DNA of 22,953 nucleotides from a virus, in the IMG/VR virus record IMGVR_UViG_3300009703_000113, positions 1 through 22,953 of that record; one strand, given 5' to 3'. Both the position numbers and the translations under genes were made by a program. The first letter of the stretch is position 1. Each line of letters starts with the position of its first letter. Below are positions 1 to 8,110 of the stretch, piece by piece. The notes under the pieces were generated by a model. That model was not told the origin of the DNA, did not search any database, and saw nothing but the letters and a program-made list of their open reading frames with translations.

Positions 1-1421
1 AATTGAGCTCTCGAAGCAATTGAGATAGCTTTCTCAAGTACCATGAAGAGTCTGCGAACATTGATACGATCAAATGCAGATGCTTTAGCCTGAGCAGTTT
101 TATCACCCCATAGTAGTGTTCCCATTCCCGGAAATGTTACTACTGGATTGATACGGCCTTTATATAAAGTATCCCTTTGAGTCTTAGTTGGATTAAAGGC
201 TAACTTAATAGAACCTTTAATATTACCACGACTCATTCCAGCTGGAGAGAACCAAGGATCTGCTGCATCATCTGTAGAAGCACAAGTTCCAGCAATATCA
301 CCGTTTAATGGTACCCATACATAATTATCATTATATGTATCATACATATATTTCCAACCAGAATCAAATACAGAATAACTAGATGAATTAAATCCAGTTG
401 AGACATTATTGAAATAATCAGTCACATTAGTTGTTTGTGTTGCAGAGTTAGAAACCCCAACAACATCTGATATCAACGGTGAAATAAATGCTAGGCAATC
501 TTTACGAGTTGCTGCAACATCAAGACAATCTTTAGCAAATGTTAAATCTGCATCACCTGATATTAATAAATTAAGATCAACTGTATCAGCATCATTAAAT
601 TCGTCTAATGCTTCAGATCTATCACCAGTAGTAACAGTTCCATCAACACCATTAGCTAACGATAATGAGTAAGCTGCTTCTGTACCAAGATATGCAGCAC
701 TAGCAATAGCTGAGCCCCAAGCAGTTCCGCTTGTTGCTGTAGGATGATCCATCCAGTGAACATATCTAGATGAACGGAATAGAACATCTTTATAATACAT
801 GCCTTCGCCTGTAATAGACTTAACATCATATGATTTTGAAGCAATAAATGTTTCTAATACAGTTCCAGCAACACCAGTGATACCACCATCTTCATCAGAA
901 ACGACTATATAAACCTCATCATCAGCACCACCAAGACCGAGAGCATAATCTGTTGTACCCGGTTTTATATCAAATAAAGCCTCATGTGCCCATCCAGAAA
1001 ATGCTCCCCCTGAAGGACATACATCTACTTTAAGACTGTTTCCCCATACTCCTGGGGTTTTTGCTGCAAAATCGCCAACTGCGGTTAATGTAGTATTTTC
1101 CCAAATATCATCATTCTTAATCAATATACCCGCTGTTCCCGATGCGTTGAGCGCGGCAGATTCATCAATTGCACGAACTACTTTCAGTGTGCCTGAATAT
1201 TTTAAAAAGTTTGCGGCTGTCCACCAAGATGCAGAGTTAGAACTATTTGGCTTACCAAAATTATCTACCAATTCAGCTTCGGTCGAAACTGTTACGATGG
1301 TGTCACAGGGGCCTTTATCAGCCACTATAACAATACCACCAATTGATGTAGATACATTTGGAATTATAGTTGTTAAATCTTTCTCTTGGACTAATACGCC
1401 GGGACTAACTTGAAAAGCCAT
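1..1421 (-). CDS. 18: Contractile tail sheath protein, gp18-like (C-terminus off the left edge)
   Basis: This gene reads leftwards and is open across the whole left end, so it has no stop in the window. The visible part is 473 codons; T4 gp18 is about 659 residues, so the C-terminal domain is missing. The protein begins MAFQVSPGVLVQEKDLT, the usual sheath start with an SPGV motif and an acidic patch. Near the left edge it has FPGMGTLLWGDKTAQ followed by AFDRINVRRLFMVLEKAI, which matches the conserved sheath-family core (G-x-x-x-W-G-x-x-T, then NVRRL). The sheath polymerises around the tail tube and contracts to drive infection. The start at 1421 is preceded by AAAGGAGAAAACT, a good ribosome binding site, and a minus-strand TATAAATA box lies 78 nt upstream. 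It is transcribed away from every other gene in the window. Identification is from recognised family motifs. Confidence 0.95.
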   Translation of the reverse strand, partial: MAFQVSPGVLVQEKDLTTIIPNVSTSIGGIVIVADKGPCDTIVTVSTEAELVDNFGKPNSSNSASWWTAANFLKYSGTLKVVRAIDESAALNASGTAGILIKNDDIWENTTLTAVGDFAAKTPGVWGNSLKVDVCPSGGAFSGWAHEALFDIKPGTTDYALGLGGADDEVYIVVSDEDGGITGVAGTVLETFIASKSYDVKSITGEGMYYKDVLFRSSRYVHWMDHPTATSGTAWGSAIASAAYLGTEAAYSLSLANGVDGTVTTGDRSEALDEFNDADTVDLNLLISGDADLTFAKDCLDVAATRKDCLAFISPLISDVVGVSNSATQTTNVTDYFNNVSTGFNSSSYSVFDSGWKYMYDTYNDNYVWVPLNGDIAGTCASTDDAADPWFSPAGMSRGNIKGSIKLAFNPTKTQRDTLYKGRINPVVTFPGMGTLLWGDKTAQAKASAFDRINVRRLFMVLEKAISIASRAQ

Positions 1422-1491: not shown

Positions 1492-1499
1492 TATTTATA
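1492..1499 (-). promoter_or_regulatory. T4-type late promoter for the tail sheath gene
   Basis: Read on the minus strand this is an exact TATAAATA, the T4 late promoter -10 box used by the gp55-type late sigma factor. Its first base lies 78 nt upstream of the sheath ATG. It faces away from the plus-strand late box at 1531-1538, making a divergent late control region. AT-only octamers do arise by chance in such a genome, but this one is intergenic and correctly oriented. Confidence 0.75.
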
Positions 1500-1530: not shown

Positions 1531-1538
1531 TATAAATA
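1531..1538 (+). promoter_or_regulatory. T4-type late promoter for the decarboxylase gene
   Basis: Exact TATAAATA in the divergent gap, 75 nt before the ATG at 1606. It suggests that the ThDP enzyme downstream is expressed late, together with virion genes. No sigma70-like -35 element accompanies it, as expected of T4-type late promoters. Confidence 0.72.
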
Positions 1539-1605: not shown

Positions 1606-3285
1606 ATGAATTTAGGACATTTTTTAATTAAGCAACTCAGATTGTATGGTGCGGAACACATATTTGGTATTCCGGGCGATTACACTCTAAATTTTATGAG
1701 AGAGATAGAACAAAATCCCGGAATAGAATATGTTGGGGTTTCGAGAGAGGATTCGGCTGGGTATGCTGCTGATGCTTATGGTAGACTCCGTGGATGTGGT
1801 GCAGTATGTATTACCTATTCTGTAGGTGCAATGAATATTATGAATGCTGTGGCAGGGGCATATGCAGAAAAATCCCCTATGGTGGTTCTTGTTGGTAAAC
1901 CCAGTGAAGAAGATCTCAAGATAAACCCCAATCGACATCATACTATCTCTACCGGCAATACACAAAAAGAAATCTTTTCAAATATAACATGCAATGCTTA
2001 TACCTTAGATTCTGAGGATATGTTCGTCAATATGGCAGTGATTCATCTTGCCCTGAATCAAATGAGAATGCATTCACGACCAGTATATATTGAATTTTCG
2101 AATAAAGATATAATGCGAAGCGTTGATCATTATCTCTCTAAGTTCTATGCGGTATATGGTAGGGATGTACCCTATAACCACAAACCACAAATCCTAGACC
2201 TTCCCTATGAGGGACTTGATAAATTTGTCCATGCAAAGAATAGAGTTCTTATTATTGGGCACGAAGTGTTTAGGAATACATTAGAAGATCAAATTCTTGA
2301 GTTCTCTAAAAAATTAAATATACCAATTTTCACAACTCTCCTTGGCAAGTCTACTATATCAGAATTTGAACAAAATTGTCTTGGTTGTGTTTCTGAACTA
2401 TTTTCTGATATCTCTATTATCAATAAAATAAAAGAATCTGACTGTATTGTAACACTTGGTATGGTTAACACAGATGTAGAATCATTTTCTTGGAATGCTG
2501 ATATATCTATTAATATGGACGATGGTATTAGATTCAATAACGATTATATAAAAGAATTAAAGACTTCAAATTCGGGGTTCCTCGAATTGGTTAGTTCTTT
2601 TATATCAAAATTTGAAGATATAGAGGCACAAGATTCAGCGGTTCTTGACGAATGGAAAGAAATTGTAGATTCTACTAAGAGCACTAAAGTTGAGGTTGAT
2701 TCTACCGAGGTTTCTAGTCCGATTAAACTCGAATGTGTGTTCGATTTAATTGGGAAGACTGTGACAGATGATCATATAATCATATCCGATATAGGGGAAT
2801 CTTTATTTGGTATGATTGATATTCCAGTAAGGAAGGGTCAATTCCTTTGCATGGCGTATTATACTTCCATGTCGTTCTCGGTTCCCGGCGCAATTGGGGT
2901 TAAGTATGCCAAACCGAATAAAAGACCAGTCATTATTGTTGGGGATGGTGCATTCCAAATGACAGGATCTGAATTCTCAACACATATTCGTAATAATTTA
3001 AACACTATTGTAATTATATTGAACAACAGGGGATATTCAACTGAAAAAGCTATTATGGAAGGCGAATTTAATGATATACATAATTGGAGCTATGAAAAAA
3101 TTACGGATCTCACGAATGGGGGCGTTGGTGTACACGTACAGGATTCGACGAAGTTTAAGGAGGTATTTGAAATGGCGATAGCAGATGAATCCGAATCCTA
3201 TGTATTGAACGTTGAGATAGATCCAGAAGAACAATCTGCTCCAATGAAAAATATAATCCAAAAACTATGTATAGATAAACTGTGA
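1606..3285 (+). CDS. ThDP-dependent 2-keto-acid decarboxylase (pyruvate/indolepyruvate decarboxylase family)
   Basis: A 559-residue protein from the preferred start (564 from the ATG at 1591). Family length is about 540-570, so it looks complete. Domains in order are PYR (about 1-170), central (about 195-340) and PP (about 375-540). Counting from 1606, the residues that define the decarboxylase family are present: Asp25 in IPGDY, Glu48 in REDSAGYAAD, the His111-His112 pair, the ThDP/Mg motif GDG at 446-448 ending in NN at 473-474, and Glu480 in GYSTE. The HH pair and the final Glu set these enzymes apart from acetolactate synthases. The family removes CO2 from a 2-keto acid to give an aldehyde, in the cytoplasm. 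The substrate cannot be told from sequence. The gene follows a late promoter and the next ORF starts 5 nt after its stop. It has no structural role that I know of, so it is probably an auxiliary metabolic gene. Confidence 0.88.
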   Translation: MNLGHFLIKQLRLYGAEHIFGIPGDYTLNFMREIEQNPGIEYVGVSREDSAGYAADAYGRLRGCGAVCITYSVGAMNIMNAVAGAYAEKSPMVVLVGKPSEEDLKINPNRHHTISTGNTQKEIFSNITCNAYTLDSEDMFVNMAVIHLALNQMRMHSRPVYIEFSNKDIMRSVDHYLSKFYAVYGRDVPYNHKPQILDLPYEGLDKFVHAKNRVLIIGHEVFRNTLEDQILEFSKKLNIPIFTTLLGKSTISEFEQNCLGCVSELFSDISIINKIKESDCIVTLGMVNTDVESFSWNADISINMDDGIRFNNDYIKELKTSNSGFLELVSSFISKFEDIEAQDSAVLDEWKEIVDSTKSTKVEVDSTEVSSPIKLECVFDLIGKTVTDDHIIISDIGESLFGMIDIPVRKGQFLCMAYYTSMSFSVPGAIGVKYAKPNKRPVIIVGDGAFQMTGSEFSTHIRNNLNTIVIILNNRGYSTEKAIMEGEFNDIHNWSYEKITDLTNGGVGVHVQDSTKFKEVFEMAIADESESYVLNVEIDPEEQSAPMKNIIQKLCIDKL

Positions 3286-3289
3286 TGCA

Positions 3290-3859
3290 ATGGGAAGACC
3301 GAGAACATGGACCGTATATTACACATTTAATTCTGAGGGAATAATATATAACATATTTTACACCAAAGACGAAAACCATGATAAGAGGGTAAGAAAATAC
3401 AAATCCGGATTAACAAATTCTGAGGCTATTCTCTTAGTCAAAATAATGAAAAATAAGTATGGTATAGATTCTATAGATATAAATGAATCTATACCAGACA
3501 AACTTAAATATCTGAAGCTACCTCCCCTGAGTCATAAATCTAGGTTAACCACATCATGGAACAAAGGTCTGAGGACTGGAGGATCTTACAAATCATCAAC
3601 AACAAAAGCTAATAACAGAATTAAAACTAAAAAAGAAATTTGGTTAAATAATACATTCACAAATAAATCTTGTGTATTTTGTCATGAATCGGAAATAGTT
3701 TGTCTAAGATATTATCCGAAAGGAAGGGAGATTATCAGAATAAATAATAATTTAGGTATAACACAAAGGAGATGTAGATTGATCGAGTTAATCGAGAATC
3801 AAGATGTCGTTTGCCTTAACTGCGAAAGTAAATTGAATATAGGACTCGAATTAATTTGA
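3290..3859 (+). CDS. Degenerate HNH/zinc-ribbon protein
   Basis: 189 residues, basic in the first two thirds. The C-terminal third has CVFC (128-131) and CLNC (175-178), spaced as in the zinc-binding frame of HNH endonucleases, with the typical helix LIELIENQDVVC before the second pair. The catalytic histidines are absent: the usual H-H after the first pair reads RYYP, and the usual C-H-x-x-x-H end reads CESKLNIG. A stretch around residues 88-110 (SWNKGLRTGG and a Lys/Thr-rich tail) recalls the DNA-binding modules of homing endonucleases. It may be a homing-nuclease relic or a zinc-binding DNA-binding protein. The start lies 5 nt after the decarboxylase stop with no good ribosome binding site, so translation is probably coupled. 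Domain assignment is moderate; cleavage activity is doubtful. Confidence 0.6.
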   Translation: MGRPRTWTVYYTFNSEGIIYNIFYTKDENHDKRVRKYKSGLTNSEAILLVKIMKNKYGIDSIDINESIPDKLKYLKLPPLSHKSRLTTSWNKGLRTGGSYKSSTTKANNRIKTKKEIWLNNTFTNKSCVFCHESEIVCLRYYPKGREIIRINNNLGITQRRCRLIELIENQDVVCLNCESKLNIGLELI

Positions 3860-3866
3860 AAAAAGG

Positions 3867-3895
3867 TTTACTTTTCGACGAAATTGTTGTATAAT
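3867..3895 (+). promoter_or_regulatory. Early promoter (host sigma70 type)
   Basis: The -35 element TTTACT (3867-3872, within GTTTACTTT) and the -10 element TATAAT (3890-3895) are separated by exactly 17 nt. GTTTAC is the -35 form common among T4 early promoters. It lies just after the HNH-like ORF and just before two tiny ORFs and the dehydrogenase, so those genes are probably expressed early. The promoter at 5164-5192 has the same elements and spacing. Confidence 0.82.
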
Positions 3896-3926
3896 ATAAG
3901 TATAAATTGTTTAGATGAGATAAATT

Positions 3927-4043
3927 ATGTTGATAAATTTTACTAAATCTGGAATAAAAATATCCCTCGAAAAAGATATTTCGGTATACATATTATATAC
4001 TATCATGATTTTTGGTATGACTATAAAGAGTATTATTTCTTAA
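3927..4043 (+). CDS. Tiny hypothetical protein (38 aa), possibly membrane-associated
   Basis: This ORF begins MLINFTKSGIKISLEKD and has a hydrophobic run at about residues 18-32 (ISVYILYTIMIFGM), which could be one short membrane segment. It starts about 30 nt downstream of the early promoter -10 box. The ribosome binding site is weak (GATGAGATAAATT). T4-like phages often have such small early ORFs just after promoters, but this one rests only on position and an open frame. No family is recognised. Confidence 0.4.
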   Translation: MLINFTKSGIKISLEKDISVYILYTIMIFGMTIKSIIS

Positions 4044-4066
4044 AAATCATAGCTCAGGAGTTAAAA

Positions 4067-4213
4067 ATGAATACAGATAAAAGTTATACATTACTTACAC
4101 CTAAAGTACCAAAGAAAAAAATCAAGAATCAAGTCGAAGATTCTAAAAAAAGACATTTAAATGATGCCACCCCTGAAGAATGGGATAGGGTGACGAAATC
4201 AACGAAAAAATAA
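4067..4213 (+). CDS. Small basic hypothetical protein (48 aa)
   Basis: The protein begins MNTDKSYTLLTPKVPKKK and is rich in Lys, with charged stretches and a conserved-looking end (ATPEEWDRVTKSTKK). The ATG has a good ribosome binding site (CAGGAG, 6 nt upstream). It lies 23 nt after the 38-aa ORF and 13 nt before the dehydrogenase, so it fits a single early operon. The strong binding site and tight packing make it a likely gene. Its basic charge could suit nucleic-acid or polymerase binding, but I recognise no family. Confidence 0.6.
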   Translation: MNTDKSYTLLTPKVPKKKIKNQVEDSKKRHLNDATPEEWDRVTKSTKK

Positions 4214-4226
4214 TGGACGGTGAATT

Positions 4227-5135
4227 ATGAAATCATTTTTAAATAAACGTGTTATTATATCGGGGGGATCTAGAGGTATAGGTCTCTCCATTGCTAAAAA
4301 ACTAGCAGGGCATGGTGCTAAGGTAGCAATCCTAGCAAAAACTGCAAAATATCATCCATCGCTTCCTGGAACTATATATACTGCCGCAAAGGAGATAGAA
4401 GAGGCAGGAGGAGAAGTACTTCCTCTTGTTACCGATGTTCGAAAGGAGGATGAGGTTCTTTCGGCGGTGGATGCTACTGTTGCCGCCTTTGGTGGTATCG
4501 ATATTCTTATTAACAATGCAGGTTATGTTAATCTTACCCCGACGATGCGAGTTGGAATGAAACAATTTGATTTAATGTTCGCAGTCAATGTGCGCGGTAC
4601 GTTTCTTCTTTCAAAGGCATGTATACCACATCTCAAGGAAGGTGATAACCCTCATATTCTTAATATATGCCCTCCCCTAGATATGAAAGCTAAATGGTTT
4701 TCGACAGCTCTACCTTATTCATTATCTAAATTTGGTATGTCTCAATGTGTTCTAGGTATGGCAGAGGAATTCAGATCTCTTGGTATTGGGGTAAATGGAC
4801 TATGGCCACATTCCCTTGTAGCAACTGCAGCAATTTCTAATGTGGTTGGTGGAATAATTTCCCTGAAACATTGTAGGGATGTATCAATTATGGCGGATGC
4901 CGCAGAGGCGATTCTATCTCGAGATTCGAAGAAGTTCACTGGGGGGTTTCACATTGATGATGTACTTCTAAGATCAGAAGGGGTCGTGGATTTCGAGCGT
5001 TATAGAATAGATGCAGAACAGGATCTATGGTCTGATTATTTCATTCCAGATGATACGCCTCAGATTGAACCAATGGAATTTCCTGATATCCCACAGAATT
5101 ACGGAAAAGTAGCACATAAAAACGCTATGACATGA
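4227..5135 (+). CDS. Short-chain dehydrogenase/reductase, HSDL2-like family
   Basis: 302 residues with a Rossmann fold. The nucleotide-binding motif reads SGGSRGIG (12-19), NNAG is at 96-99, and the catalytic pair Y164-x-x-x-K168 is present. Several blocks match the hydroxysteroid dehydrogenase-like 2 (HSDL2) branch: AKTAKYHPSLPGTIYTAAKE, then HILN-x-x-PPL, YSLSKFGMSQCVLGMAEEF and GVNGLWP. Human HSDL2 carries an extra C-terminal SCP2 domain that is absent here, as in bacterial single-domain members. The family's Ser in LSPPL is Cys148 here, which may alter catalysis. The C-terminal tail from about 255 is acidic and Pro-rich. The enzyme is cytoplasmic and NAD(P)-dependent; its substrate is unknown. 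The gene follows the early promoter at 3867 and two small ORFs, so it is probably expressed earlier than the decarboxylase. Confidence 0.88.
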   Translation: MKSFLNKRVIISGGSRGIGLSIAKKLAGHGAKVAILAKTAKYHPSLPGTIYTAAKEIEEAGGEVLPLVTDVRKEDEVLSAVDATVAAFGGIDILINNAGYVNLTPTMRVGMKQFDLMFAVNVRGTFLLSKACIPHLKEGDNPHILNICPPLDMKAKWFSTALPYSLSKFGMSQCVLGMAEEFRSLGIGVNGLWPHSLVATAAISNVVGGIISLKHCRDVSIMADAAEAILSRDSKKFTGGFHIDDVLLRSEGVVDFERYRIDAEQDLWSDYFIPDDTPQIEPMEFPDIPQNYGKVAHKNAMT

Positions 5136-5163: not shown

Positions 5164-5192
5164 TTTACTTTCCTGCACCAGTATGGTATAAT
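5164..5192 (+). promoter_or_regulatory. Early promoter (host sigma70 type)
   Basis: TTTACT (5164-5169, within GTTTACTTT) and TATAAT (5187-5192) are separated by 17 nt, the same layout as at 3867-3895. The stretch before the -10 includes TATGG. It is followed within 35 nt by a small ORF with a strong ribosome binding site and serves the gene set 5225-6821. Confidence 0.85.
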
Positions 5193-5777: not shown

Positions 5778-6821
5778 ATGTCCAATAAAGAAAAAATAAG
5801 AGCTAAATGGTCTACTGAGTTAATTGAACCGGATTTACCGAAAGATTACGGGAAATACGATGTGATCAAGGCTCTTGCCTGGTATAATATCATGACTGAC
5901 TCTAAAACCTGTGCAGGATATGTTAATTCATATCTCAAGAAAAGAAAAATTTTAAAGGTCATAACCCCTCAGAATTCTATACAAACGGCTGCTGCTGTGG
6001 CAAGACTCATTGATCGGAATCAAATTACAGATTCCAAAAACTTGGAGTGGATGGAAGATTGGGTATCCCAATTGAACGATAAGGTTATTGTCCCCAAGGA
6101 TCCAAATAAAAAAGTTATTTCAGTTGCTGAAGCTACTGCAAATAAATTGAATTTCTTTCTTGAAGGTCTAGATAATGCTGTGGATGACTACATTTTCAAT
6201 TCAGATTTTAAAATGAAATTCTCGACAGAAAAATATTTAGCTAATAACAATGTTAAGTATGGGATGCTCAAACACATCGATAAATGGGCCTCAGACTTCC
6301 GTGACGAGATTATTTTAAGTAAGACGGATAAAGACCTTAAAGAAGGATATTCGAACTTTACAACACCCCAGAAGAACAAAATCATCAAATTCCTGAATAC
6401 CATGATAGAAGGAGTGGGAATCTATGGTGTTGCTATTAAACCGGAGAGAGTTAAAAAAATTAAATCTCCTTCGAAGATTGTCTCAAAATTAAAATATGCA
6501 AAATCATTTCCAGAGCTTAAACTCAAATCAGAAGATCCGCAAGGGCTAATCGGATCAAAAGAGGTTTGGGTATATAATACTAAAACCAAAATCCTTGGAT
6601 ATTATACATCCCTTGATGGAATGACTGTCACTGGAACAACTCTCCGGGGGTTTGATTTTTCAGAGCAAAGACGCTTAAGGAAACCAGAAGAACAACTCAA
6701 ACTCCTGACCAATACGAGAAAAGGGCAATGGATCAAGAAATTCACTACCCTAGCCAAGACCGTTAGAACTAGTGGAAACGGTAGATTTAATGATGCGACA
6801 ATTATCCTTAAGGTTTTCTAA
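5778..6821 (+). CDS. Conserved-looking hypothetical protein (347 aa)
   Basis: 347 residues, Lys-rich and basic, with no signal peptide or membrane segment. The N-terminal 200 residues look helical (DVIKALAWYNIMTD; a TCAGYVNSYLKKRK block near 43-57). After a basic linker (KPERVKKIKSPSK, 221-233) the C-terminal part reads KEVWVYNTKTKILGYYTS (261-278), then GTTLRGFDF and RRLRKPEEQLKLL, looking like a small beta-rich domain. From memory this C-terminal pattern occurs in hypothetical proteins of T4-like cyanophages; I could not check. It is the last gene of the second early operon and ends 7 nt before the late promoter of the hub gene. The basic charge fits nucleic-acid binding, but no function is assigned. 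A GGAGG binding site precedes the ATG. Confidence 0.85.
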   Translation: MSNKEKIRAKWSTELIEPDLPKDYGKYDVIKALAWYNIMTDSKTCAGYVNSYLKKRKILKVITPQNSIQTAAAVARLIDRNQITDSKNLEWMEDWVSQLNDKVIVPKDPNKKVISVAEATANKLNFFLEGLDNAVDDYIFNSDFKMKFSTEKYLANNNVKYGMLKHIDKWASDFRDEIILSKTDKDLKEGYSNFTTPQKNKIIKFLNTMIEGVGIYGVAIKPERVKKIKSPSKIVSKLKYAKSFPELKLKSEDPQGLIGSKEVWVYNTKTKILGYYTSLDGMTVTGTTLRGFDFSEQRRLRKPEEQLKLLTNTRKGQWIKKFTTLAKTVRTSGNGRFNDATIILKVF

Positions 6822-6862: not shown

Positions 6863-8110
6863 ATGGAAAATTATTTTGGAAAAAACGGGTTTATTTGGTT
6901 TGTGGGTGTTGTCGAAGACCGAATGGACCCAGAAAAACTTGGTAGAGTTAGGGTTCGTTGTCTGGGGCATCACTCCCCAGATAAAATAGATATACCCACG
7001 AATCATCTAGGGTGGTCAACTGTCATGGCACCCACAACAAATCCCAGCATGAACGGTCTTGGATCTACTCCACCGTTTCTAGTTGAAGGTTCTTGGGTTA
7101 CGGGTTTTTTTGTTGATCAATTCAAGCAAGAATGTATTATTGTGGGTTCCCTTCCCGGATTTAATTTTCCATCTGAGGACTCTGACAATAAAGACGGATT
7201 CAAAGATCCGAATGGTGTATATCCGAGATCTGGTACAGACCCAGAAGATACAAATAAGTTGGCAAGGGGAAGTCGTGCATTAACACACAATTCTCTTATA
7301 ACAAGAAAGAACAACAAAATAACAGATATACCAAAAGCAACCAAACCACAGTTATCTACTGTGGAATCTATGCCTGAAGACAAAAGGGCAACTTGGGACG
7401 AATTAAATCCCAAATCAGACACTTTTTCCGTATACCCTTATAATCATGTTAACGAATCAGAATCGGGTCATGTACGTGAAGTAGACGATTCTCCGGGGGG
7501 AGAACGTATAATGAACTACCATCGTACCGGAACATTCGATGAAATTCATCCCGATGGATCTAAGGTCACAAAGATTGTTGGATCCGAATATGAAATAACA
7601 CTAAGGGATAAGAATGTATTAATAGAAGGTGCATGTAACATAACCATATCTGGCGCTTGTAGACAATTGATCAAGGGCGATTATATCCTCGAGGTTGAGG
7701 GTAATTATACAGAGAAGATTCATAAAAATCATTATGTCAAAATTGGTGCTGGAGAATCTGGTGGTAACGAAGCATACGAAATACTTGGTAATAGAACTGG
7801 GAATATTTCGAGCAACGATAGCATAAGAATAGCGCAAAATATAGAAGCTGTATGTAACGGTAATCATAATTATCAGTTAAATGGGGATTACTCCCAAACA
7901 ACTATGAAAGATTATTCATTAACCACCTCAGGAATATCTTCTATACAATCTACGAAAAATATATCAATAAATTCTGTAACAGAGGATTGTTCCATTAAGG
8001 CTGGAGGAAAAATGAATATTCGGTCTGATCAGAAACTTGATATGCATTCAGAAAGTGCAACTATAGACATTTCTGCGAATAATAAATCTGGCGCAATTAA
8101 CTTAAACTAG
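6863..8110 (+). CDS. 5: Baseplate hub/needle protein, gp5-like, without lysozyme domain
   Basis: 415 residues against 575 for T4 gp5. Residues 1-105 form the OB-fold domain (FVGVVEDRMDPEKLGRVRVR at 13-32, then EGSWVTGFFVDQ and IIVGSLPGF). A linker follows. At 191-216 comes YPYNHVNESESGHVREVDD with GGERI, the lead-in to the triple-stranded beta-helix needle found in VgrG and gp5 proteins. From about 235 the sequence has short beta repeats (KNVLIEGACNITISG, then GDYILEVEGNYTEKI). The T4 lysozyme domain that sits between OB-fold and helix is missing, as in many marine relatives. The needle pierces the outer membrane. The ATG has no clear Shine-Dalgarno, and the late promoter lies 35 nt upstream, leaving a very short leader. 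A helical protein, a nuclease and the PAAR tip follow in the same operon. Confidence 0.92.
   Translation: MENYFGKNGFIWFVGVVEDRMDPEKLGRVRVRCLGHHSPDKIDIPTNHLGWSTVMAPTTNPSMNGLGSTPPFLVEGSWVTGFFVDQFKQECIIVGSLPGFNFPSEDSDNKDGFKDPNGVYPRSGTDPEDTNKLARGSRALTHNSLITRKNNKITDIPKATKPQLSTVESMPEDKRATWDELNPKSDTFSVYPYNHVNESESGHVREVDDSPGGERIMNYHRTGTFDEIHPDGSKVTKIVGSEYEITLRDKNVLIEGACNITISGACRQLIKGDYILEVEGNYTEKIHKNHYVKIGAGESGGNEAYEILGNRTGNISSNDSIRIAQNIEAVCNGNHNYQLNGDYSQTTMKDYSLTTSGISSIQSTKNISINSVTEDCSIKAGGKMNIRSDQKLDMHSESATIDISANNKSGAINLN

Follow-up and report, generated by a model that had tools for sequence, protein, structure and literature searches.

The window analysed here, i.e., the 22,953 nucleotides (positions 1 to 22,953) of the IMG/VR virus record IMGVR_UViG_3300009703_000113, is a T4-like structural cluster according to its Pfam and PHROG profile matches. 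Between its tail sheath gene and its baseplate genes there are two genes for metabolic enzymes: a thiamine diphosphate (ThDP)-dependent 2-keto-acid decarboxylase (KDC) of 559 aa that resembles the indole- and phenylpyruvate decarboxylases (1606..3285, plus strand) and a short-chain dehydrogenase (SDR) of 302 aa that belongs to the HSDL2/PRK08278 family (4227..5135, plus strand). Based on the comparative and structure-prediction evidence, we consider it probable that this interval is a site of insertion at which two auxiliary metabolic genes have accumulated independently of each other: a working KDC, whose likeliest substrates would be branched-chain or aromatic keto acids, and an SDR that is not its partner. 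An earlier note, which was made from the sequence of this DNA without database searches, had placed both genes between the tail sheath and the baseplate genes, had regarded neither as a standard T4 gene and had suggested that both may be auxiliary metabolic genes. All three proposals were borne out, as the genes are intact, conserved, under purifying selection and located on genuine phage contigs. Known phage metabolic genes centre on photosynthesis, the pentose phosphate pathway, nucleotides and sulfur, and the KDC is an auxiliary metabolic gene of an enzyme class that apparently has not been described before in phages. No phage KDC was found in BFVD, where there were only acetolactate-synthase-like proteins of giant viruses. 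Moreover, the record of the huge phage LR756511, which encodes a relative, carries no annotation, and the text of the huge-phage paper does not mention a decarboxylase. A literature search in PubMed Central (PMC) on keto-acid decarboxylases and beta-oxidation genes of phages and on aldehyde dehydrogenases of huge phages returned nothing pertinent except the fadB of Hurwitz et al. (2013).

Family, predicted fold and substrate pocket of the decarboxylase

The start of the KDC was set at position 1606, where the Shine-Dalgarno sequence AAAGGTG is conserved among the aligned copies; the ATG that precedes it at 1591 shows no such conservation. The TPP_enzyme_N, M and C domains follow each other in this order with 101, 55 and 81 bits, all far above the Pfam cut-offs. 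The top NCBIfam models are those of the indolepyruvate/phenylpyruvate decarboxylases, with scores below their equivalog cut-offs, and the closest solved structures by sequence are KdcA, the phenylpyruvate decarboxylase (PPDC) of A. brasilense and KivD. PHROG 11199, a family of unknown function, also matches the protein, which implies that unrecognised KDC relatives exist. An alignment with 64 relatives revealed a complete catalytic set, i.e., D25, the ThDP-activating E48, H111/H112, GDG..NN and E480, and thus agreed with the earlier observation that the catalytic residues of the pyruvate/indolepyruvate decarboxylase family are intact. The full set is common to the T4-like copies and to almost all of the huge-phage and cellular relatives. 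Because A. brasilense PPDC has Leu at the position of E480 and hence lacks this Glu, the phage KDC is in this sense the more canonical enzyme. The AlphaFold model was confident (pLDDT 90.6, pTM 0.92), and its top Foldseek matches were indolepyruvate decarboxylase (IPDC), KDC4427, pyruvate decarboxylase (PDC) and KdcA, with TM-scores of 0.81-0.85 (0.80-0.85 when PPDC is included). With IPDC/PPDC (TIGR03394, TIGR03393; PDB 2nxw, 1ovm, 8zk6) and KdcA/KivD (2vbf, 9msa) the KDC shares the three-domain ThDP fold, the HH pair, GDG..NN, a full-length alignment and, except in PPDC, the Glu at E480. It differs from them in being phage-encoded, in an identity of only ~22-27% by structure alignment and in its own combination of pocket residues.

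In the alignment, this pocket consists of I396/L400/T479/I483, compared with Q/F/V/I in KdcA and M/L/M/F in PPDC. The four residues correspond to Q377, F381, V461 and I465 of KdcA, which are known pocket positions of PDC and KdcA, and pyruvate decarboxylases have Trp where the KDC has L400. The replacement of this Trp by Leu suggests substrates that are larger than pyruvate. The likeliest would be 2-keto acids of medium to bulky size that arise from amino-acid breakdown, either branched-chain or aromatic ones, because the pocket is devoid of the bulky residue of the pyruvate specialists. During infection, the enzyme would convert R-CO-COOH to R-CHO and CO2 and would probably channel amino-acid carbon; the aldehyde may be left to host enzymes in the T4-like phages and, in the huge phages, may often be oxidised by a phage aldehyde dehydrogenase (ALDH). 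It is improbable that the KDC is instead a pyruvate decarboxylase that produces acetaldehyde and regenerates NAD+ by fermentation in low oxygen. Such a role would suit a related phage contig (G006) that encodes alanine dehydrogenase, a pyruvate phosphate dikinase (PPDK)/phosphoenolpyruvate (PEP) synthase and malate dehydrogenase, all around the pyruvate node, and PDCs are among the Foldseek matches. However, the large aromatic residue that PDCs carry is absent at L400, the top sequence models are IPDC/PPDC, and the top PDB sequence matches are KdcA and PPDC rather than PDC.

The dehydrogenase and its relation to the decarboxylase

The SDR is a member of NF006133/PRK08278, which it matched over its full length with 378.3 bits (curated cut-off 250). 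Human HSDL2 (3kvo) was its second-best PDB match, and 3sc4 and 3e03 were also among the matches. The Gly-rich NAD(P) motif SGGSRGIG is present and so are N121, Y164 and K168, i.e., the N-Y-K of the SDR tetrad that is shared with the HSDL2/PRK08278 family. The difference from this family lies in the catalytic Ser of the classical SDRs, which is Cys148 in all seven phage copies (six from the lineage of the window, hereafter clade A, and one from contig L277), whereas 20 gammaproteobacterial relatives with 46-55% identity have either Ser (15) or Ala (5) at this position. The exchange of Ser for Cys inactivates some classical SDRs, and the SDRs of the HSDL2 family are tied to lipid metabolism, not to short aldehydes. 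The earlier note was therefore right about the HSDL2-like identity, but its premise that the enzyme can reduce carbonyls is weaker than had been stated because Cys148 replaces the catalytic Ser. The SDR, which would act early in infection, probably has a place in lipid or acyl metabolism or a modified, possibly non-redox role, rather than being the dedicated partner of the KDC.

Within clade A, the two genes occur together. The order of the sheath gene on the minus strand followed by KDC, orf189 (3290..3859, 4 nt past the KDC) and SDR on the plus strand was found in six of the six contigs that were long enough, in full in the window, G001, G009, G011 and G013, and in G012, which starts inside the KDC. 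Among the clade-A copies, which are 88-99% identical, dN/dS was 0.08-0.13 for KDC, 0.08-0.21 for orf189 and 0.04-0.11 for SDR; both the KDC and the SDR are under purifying selection. In contig L017, the KDC-orf189-SDR block is 93-96% identical to that of the window, compared with 62% for the sheath and 45% for gp6, while in L004 the block is 86-94% identical, the sheath 66%, the next three genes 51-72% and gp5 98%. Judging by these identities, the block acts as a recombination unit.

Outside of clade A, the pair comes apart. The sister lineage, hereafter clade B, comprises the eight contigs G002-G008 and G010. They are T4-like and, wherever they extend far enough, encode homologues of gp5/gp6/gp25 or of the sheath; all eight have the KDC, while the SDR was not found in any of them. 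Their KDC is ~67% identical to that of clade A, compared with a median near 41% for the other shared genes, and it is located between a lipase and a phosphoribosyl pyrophosphate synthetase (G006 type) or between gp46- and gp47-like genes (G008, named by eye). Two further T4-like fragments have a KDC and no SDR: L139, in which a KDC with 53% identity follows a formyltransferase-like gene, and L157, in which one with 55% identity is downstream of an NrdB-like gene. The reverse was observed in L277, whose sheath is 84% identical to that of the window. At the same locus, it has an orf189 with 53% identity (L277:5021-5590) and a different gene in place of the KDC, and its SDR (72% identity, Cys retained) begins 10 nt past a malate dehydrogenase. 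Near gp5, neither KDC nor SDR was found in relatives with a gp6 of ~39% identity, few of whose contigs extend far enough. Since each gene occurs without the other, KDC and SDR are passengers that share an insertion locus but can be separated.

The promoters point in the same direction. A late-type element, TATAAATA, is located 68 nt upstream of the KDC (1531..1538, plus strand) and is invariant in 8/8 clade-A copies; a second one serves the sheath gene (1492..1499, minus strand) and is kept in nearly all of the aligned intergenic copies, the two elements being divergent and facing each other. In the AT-rich window, TATAAATA occurs eight times compared with 5.7 expected, which is not significant, and its support comes from conservation only. 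The SDR transcription unit is preceded by an early- or host-type (sigma70-like) promoter, TTTACTTT-N15-TATAAT (3867..3895, plus strand), that is present in 6/6 loci, with small substitutions in some. The TTTACTTT/TATAAT pair has two matches in the window compared with 0.02 expected, the second one being downstream of the SDR (5164..5192, plus strand). The late promoters persist in L277, where the KDC is absent. In clade B no late element was found ahead of the KDC, which indicates that late expression is a feature of the sheath/hub locus and not of the enzyme.

These observations bear on the proposal in the earlier note that the two enzymes may form a route from keto acid via aldehyde to alcohol. 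As a dedicated two-step pathway that regenerates NAD(P)+, this is now very unlikely. The adjacency in 6/6 close contigs, the exchange as one block and the retention of N, Y, K and the NAD(P) motif in the SDR would all be expected of such a pathway. However, the clade-B contigs, L139, L157 and the huge phages have the KDC only, and in L277 the SDR stands beside malate dehydrogenase without the KDC; a co-occurrence check that the same note had proposed thus found the pair only within one close lineage. A decarboxylase and a reductase that co-occur across lineages, as in an Ehrlich-type module, were not found. Moreover, the promoter classes, which the note had read correctly as late-type for the KDC and early-type for the SDR, differ and are conserved as such, and neither the Cys in 7/7 phage SDRs nor the lipid-linked character of the HSDL2 family fits a short-aldehyde reductase. 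The adjacency is real but dissolves across wider relatives, which calls for caution when adjacent phage metabolic genes are read as a pathway.

Relatives in huge phages and in cellular genomes

KDCs with 30-38% identity were also found in LR756511, a published huge phage of 595 kb, and in ~17 other contigs of IMG/VR, which range from 31 to 511 kb; the records of this type are L141-L160 and L027 (LR756511.1). Several of these contigs have terminase-like matches over the cut-off. Their KDC belongs to the same family as that of the window and is likewise phage-encoded, but it forms a separate branch and occupies a fixed site. Most of the ~17 contigs share the neighbourhood of LR756511, i.e., a conserved protein of unknown function followed by KDC and IF3, often with an IscA-like Fe-S protein and an ALDH further downstream; the conserved protein upstream of the KDC (e.g., L144:7068-7913) had no Pfam matches. 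An ALDH is encoded in 11 of the 18 huge-phage-type KDC records, in eight of those 11 at 3-7 kb downstream of the KDC, compared with none of the eight T4-like KDC records tested. The huge phages are thus the better case for a decarboxylase with an aldehyde-processing step, perhaps with ALDH as the partner.

The closest cellular KDCs found have 34-39% identity and are stand-alone genes, mostly from Nitrospirota, Planctomycetota and Verrucomicrobiota, whose gene context (Nitrospira and others) is uninformative. They have the same catalytic set, and positions 479 and 400 are likewise T and L (e.g., Nitrospira moscoviensis, L061); in contrast, the T4-like phage copies are on a long branch and have C415/M416/M403 where the cellular ones mostly have S/P/A. 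In a tree with long-branch references, the T4-like and huge-phage KDCs were separate, while in a tree without them a single branch, with weak support (83%), set all of the phage KDCs apart from the others. Since two or more groups of phages have kept a KDC, keto acids derived from amino acids would seem to be a target of infection that has so far gone unrecognised. As a single soluble enzyme, the KDC could be assayed, and a panel of substrates would define the reaction behind a vaguely named auxiliary gene.

Metabolic setting of the T4-like relatives

The clade-B contig G006 (IMGVR_UViG_3300028198_000256, 115 kb) encodes FadA and FadB (L013:4293-7598), a lipase of the Lipase_3 family (L013:9175-9957), FadE (L030:13657-15780) and, in L029, malate dehydrogenase, an HpcH/HpaI lyase, a PPDK/PEP synthase-like enzyme and a 4HBT thioesterase; it also encodes the alanine dehydrogenase mentioned above. 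This set amounts to a near-complete lipid-breakdown and gluconeogenesis-like programme, and related fragments were observed in many contigs. Clade-A relatives probably have beta-oxidation genes as well, because in contig L285 FadE and an HpcH/HpaI lyase occur with an ssb-like gene that is 81% identical to that of the clade-A contig G009 and 42% identical to that of G006. Hurwitz et al. (2013) proposed from the gene families of the Pacific Ocean Virome (PMC4053976) that fadB and other carbon genes are virus-borne, to which the fad genes of the relatives described here correspond. Their evidence differs in that it consists of virome gene families, fadB is outside their 14 contig-validated genes, and their text names no decarboxylase. 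It is possible, and we offer it tentatively, that a 2-keto-acid decarboxylase is a recurrent and selected component of phage biology, retained both in a T4-like marine lineage with a lipase-FadE-FadB-FadA-thioesterase-malate dehydrogenase-PEP synthase programme and in huge phages with ALDH, and that these phages run the amino-acid and lipid catabolism of the host to pay for their replication.

The same setting could suggest that the ThDP enzyme mainly serves carboligation, with the formation of acyloins, or the handling of fatty-acid chains, from which one carbon would be removed in the manner of alpha-oxidation, and that it does so in concert with the phage beta-oxidation genes and the SDR. 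The KDC adjoins lipase, FadB and FadA in G006 and G002 and is near FadB/FadA in G008, the HSDL2 family is lipid-linked, and L285 connects FadE to clade A. We nevertheless give this little chance, since the 2-hydroxyacyl-CoA lyases reached ~62-67 bits compared with 195 for the KDCs, the HH pair is a feature of decarboxylases, and fad genes were not seen near the KDC in the huge-phage contigs or in L157. Contamination or a chimeric assembly of bacterial genes, of which many KDC and SDR matches in deposited phage records are reminiscent, can practically be dismissed here, as identical junctions were found in independent metagenomes, the phage promoters and flanking structural genes are conserved, and the closest cellular KDC and SDR found have only 39% and ~55% identity, respectively. 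Apart from LR756511, those deposited matches were disregarded, since they come from isolate read-sets and whole bacterial contigs, mostly with 20-30% identity, and are probably bacterial contamination.

For the reading of two independent genes, with a KDC for branched-chain or aromatic keto acids, some points have to be set on the other side. With 248.8 bits against TIGR03394, whose curated cut-off is 554.5, the KDC is a relative and not a member of that family, and its predicted substrate preference is derived from four pocket positions and the roles that the literature gives them. Furthermore, the contigs are fragments, such that an SDR or ALDH may lie elsewhere in those genomes, and the ALDH rate in the huge phages was counted among KDC-bearing records only.

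Other features of the locus

The left border of the locus is the gp18-like tail sheath gene (3..1421, minus strand; PHROG 23, E 5e-91), which runs off the window, and the right border is the gene for a gp5-like baseplate hub subunit (6863..8110, plus strand; Gp5_OB, PHROG 430). Besides gp5, the plus strand encodes SNase, PAAR and gp25- and gp6-type baseplate proteins. Ahead of the SDR there is a small open reading frame of 48 aa (4067..4213, plus strand) with the Shine-Dalgarno sequence CAGGAG, whose start codon and ribosome-binding site are kept in 6/6 loci. The product of orf189 has two Cx2C pairs and is conserved in relatives; it had no Pfam, PHROG or NCBIfam family matches, and its AlphaFold model was uninformative. 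The spacing Cx2C..Cx2C had prompted the idea of a decayed HNH-type zinc protein, which was dropped as neither a family match nor a useful model was obtained. It was also observed that orf189 is kept in the sheath-hub locus with or without the KDC. In L277, the gene that stands in the place of the KDC at the late promoter (L277:4629-5024) resembles, by eye, a SleB-type cell-wall hydrolase, and a similar one is present in L139 (L139:2068-2499). Lastly, orf347 (5778-6821 of the window) encodes a protein of unknown function (PHROG 11903) that has 95% identity in G009 and 60% in G001, and its homologues adjoin FadA/FadB in L190 and L193.

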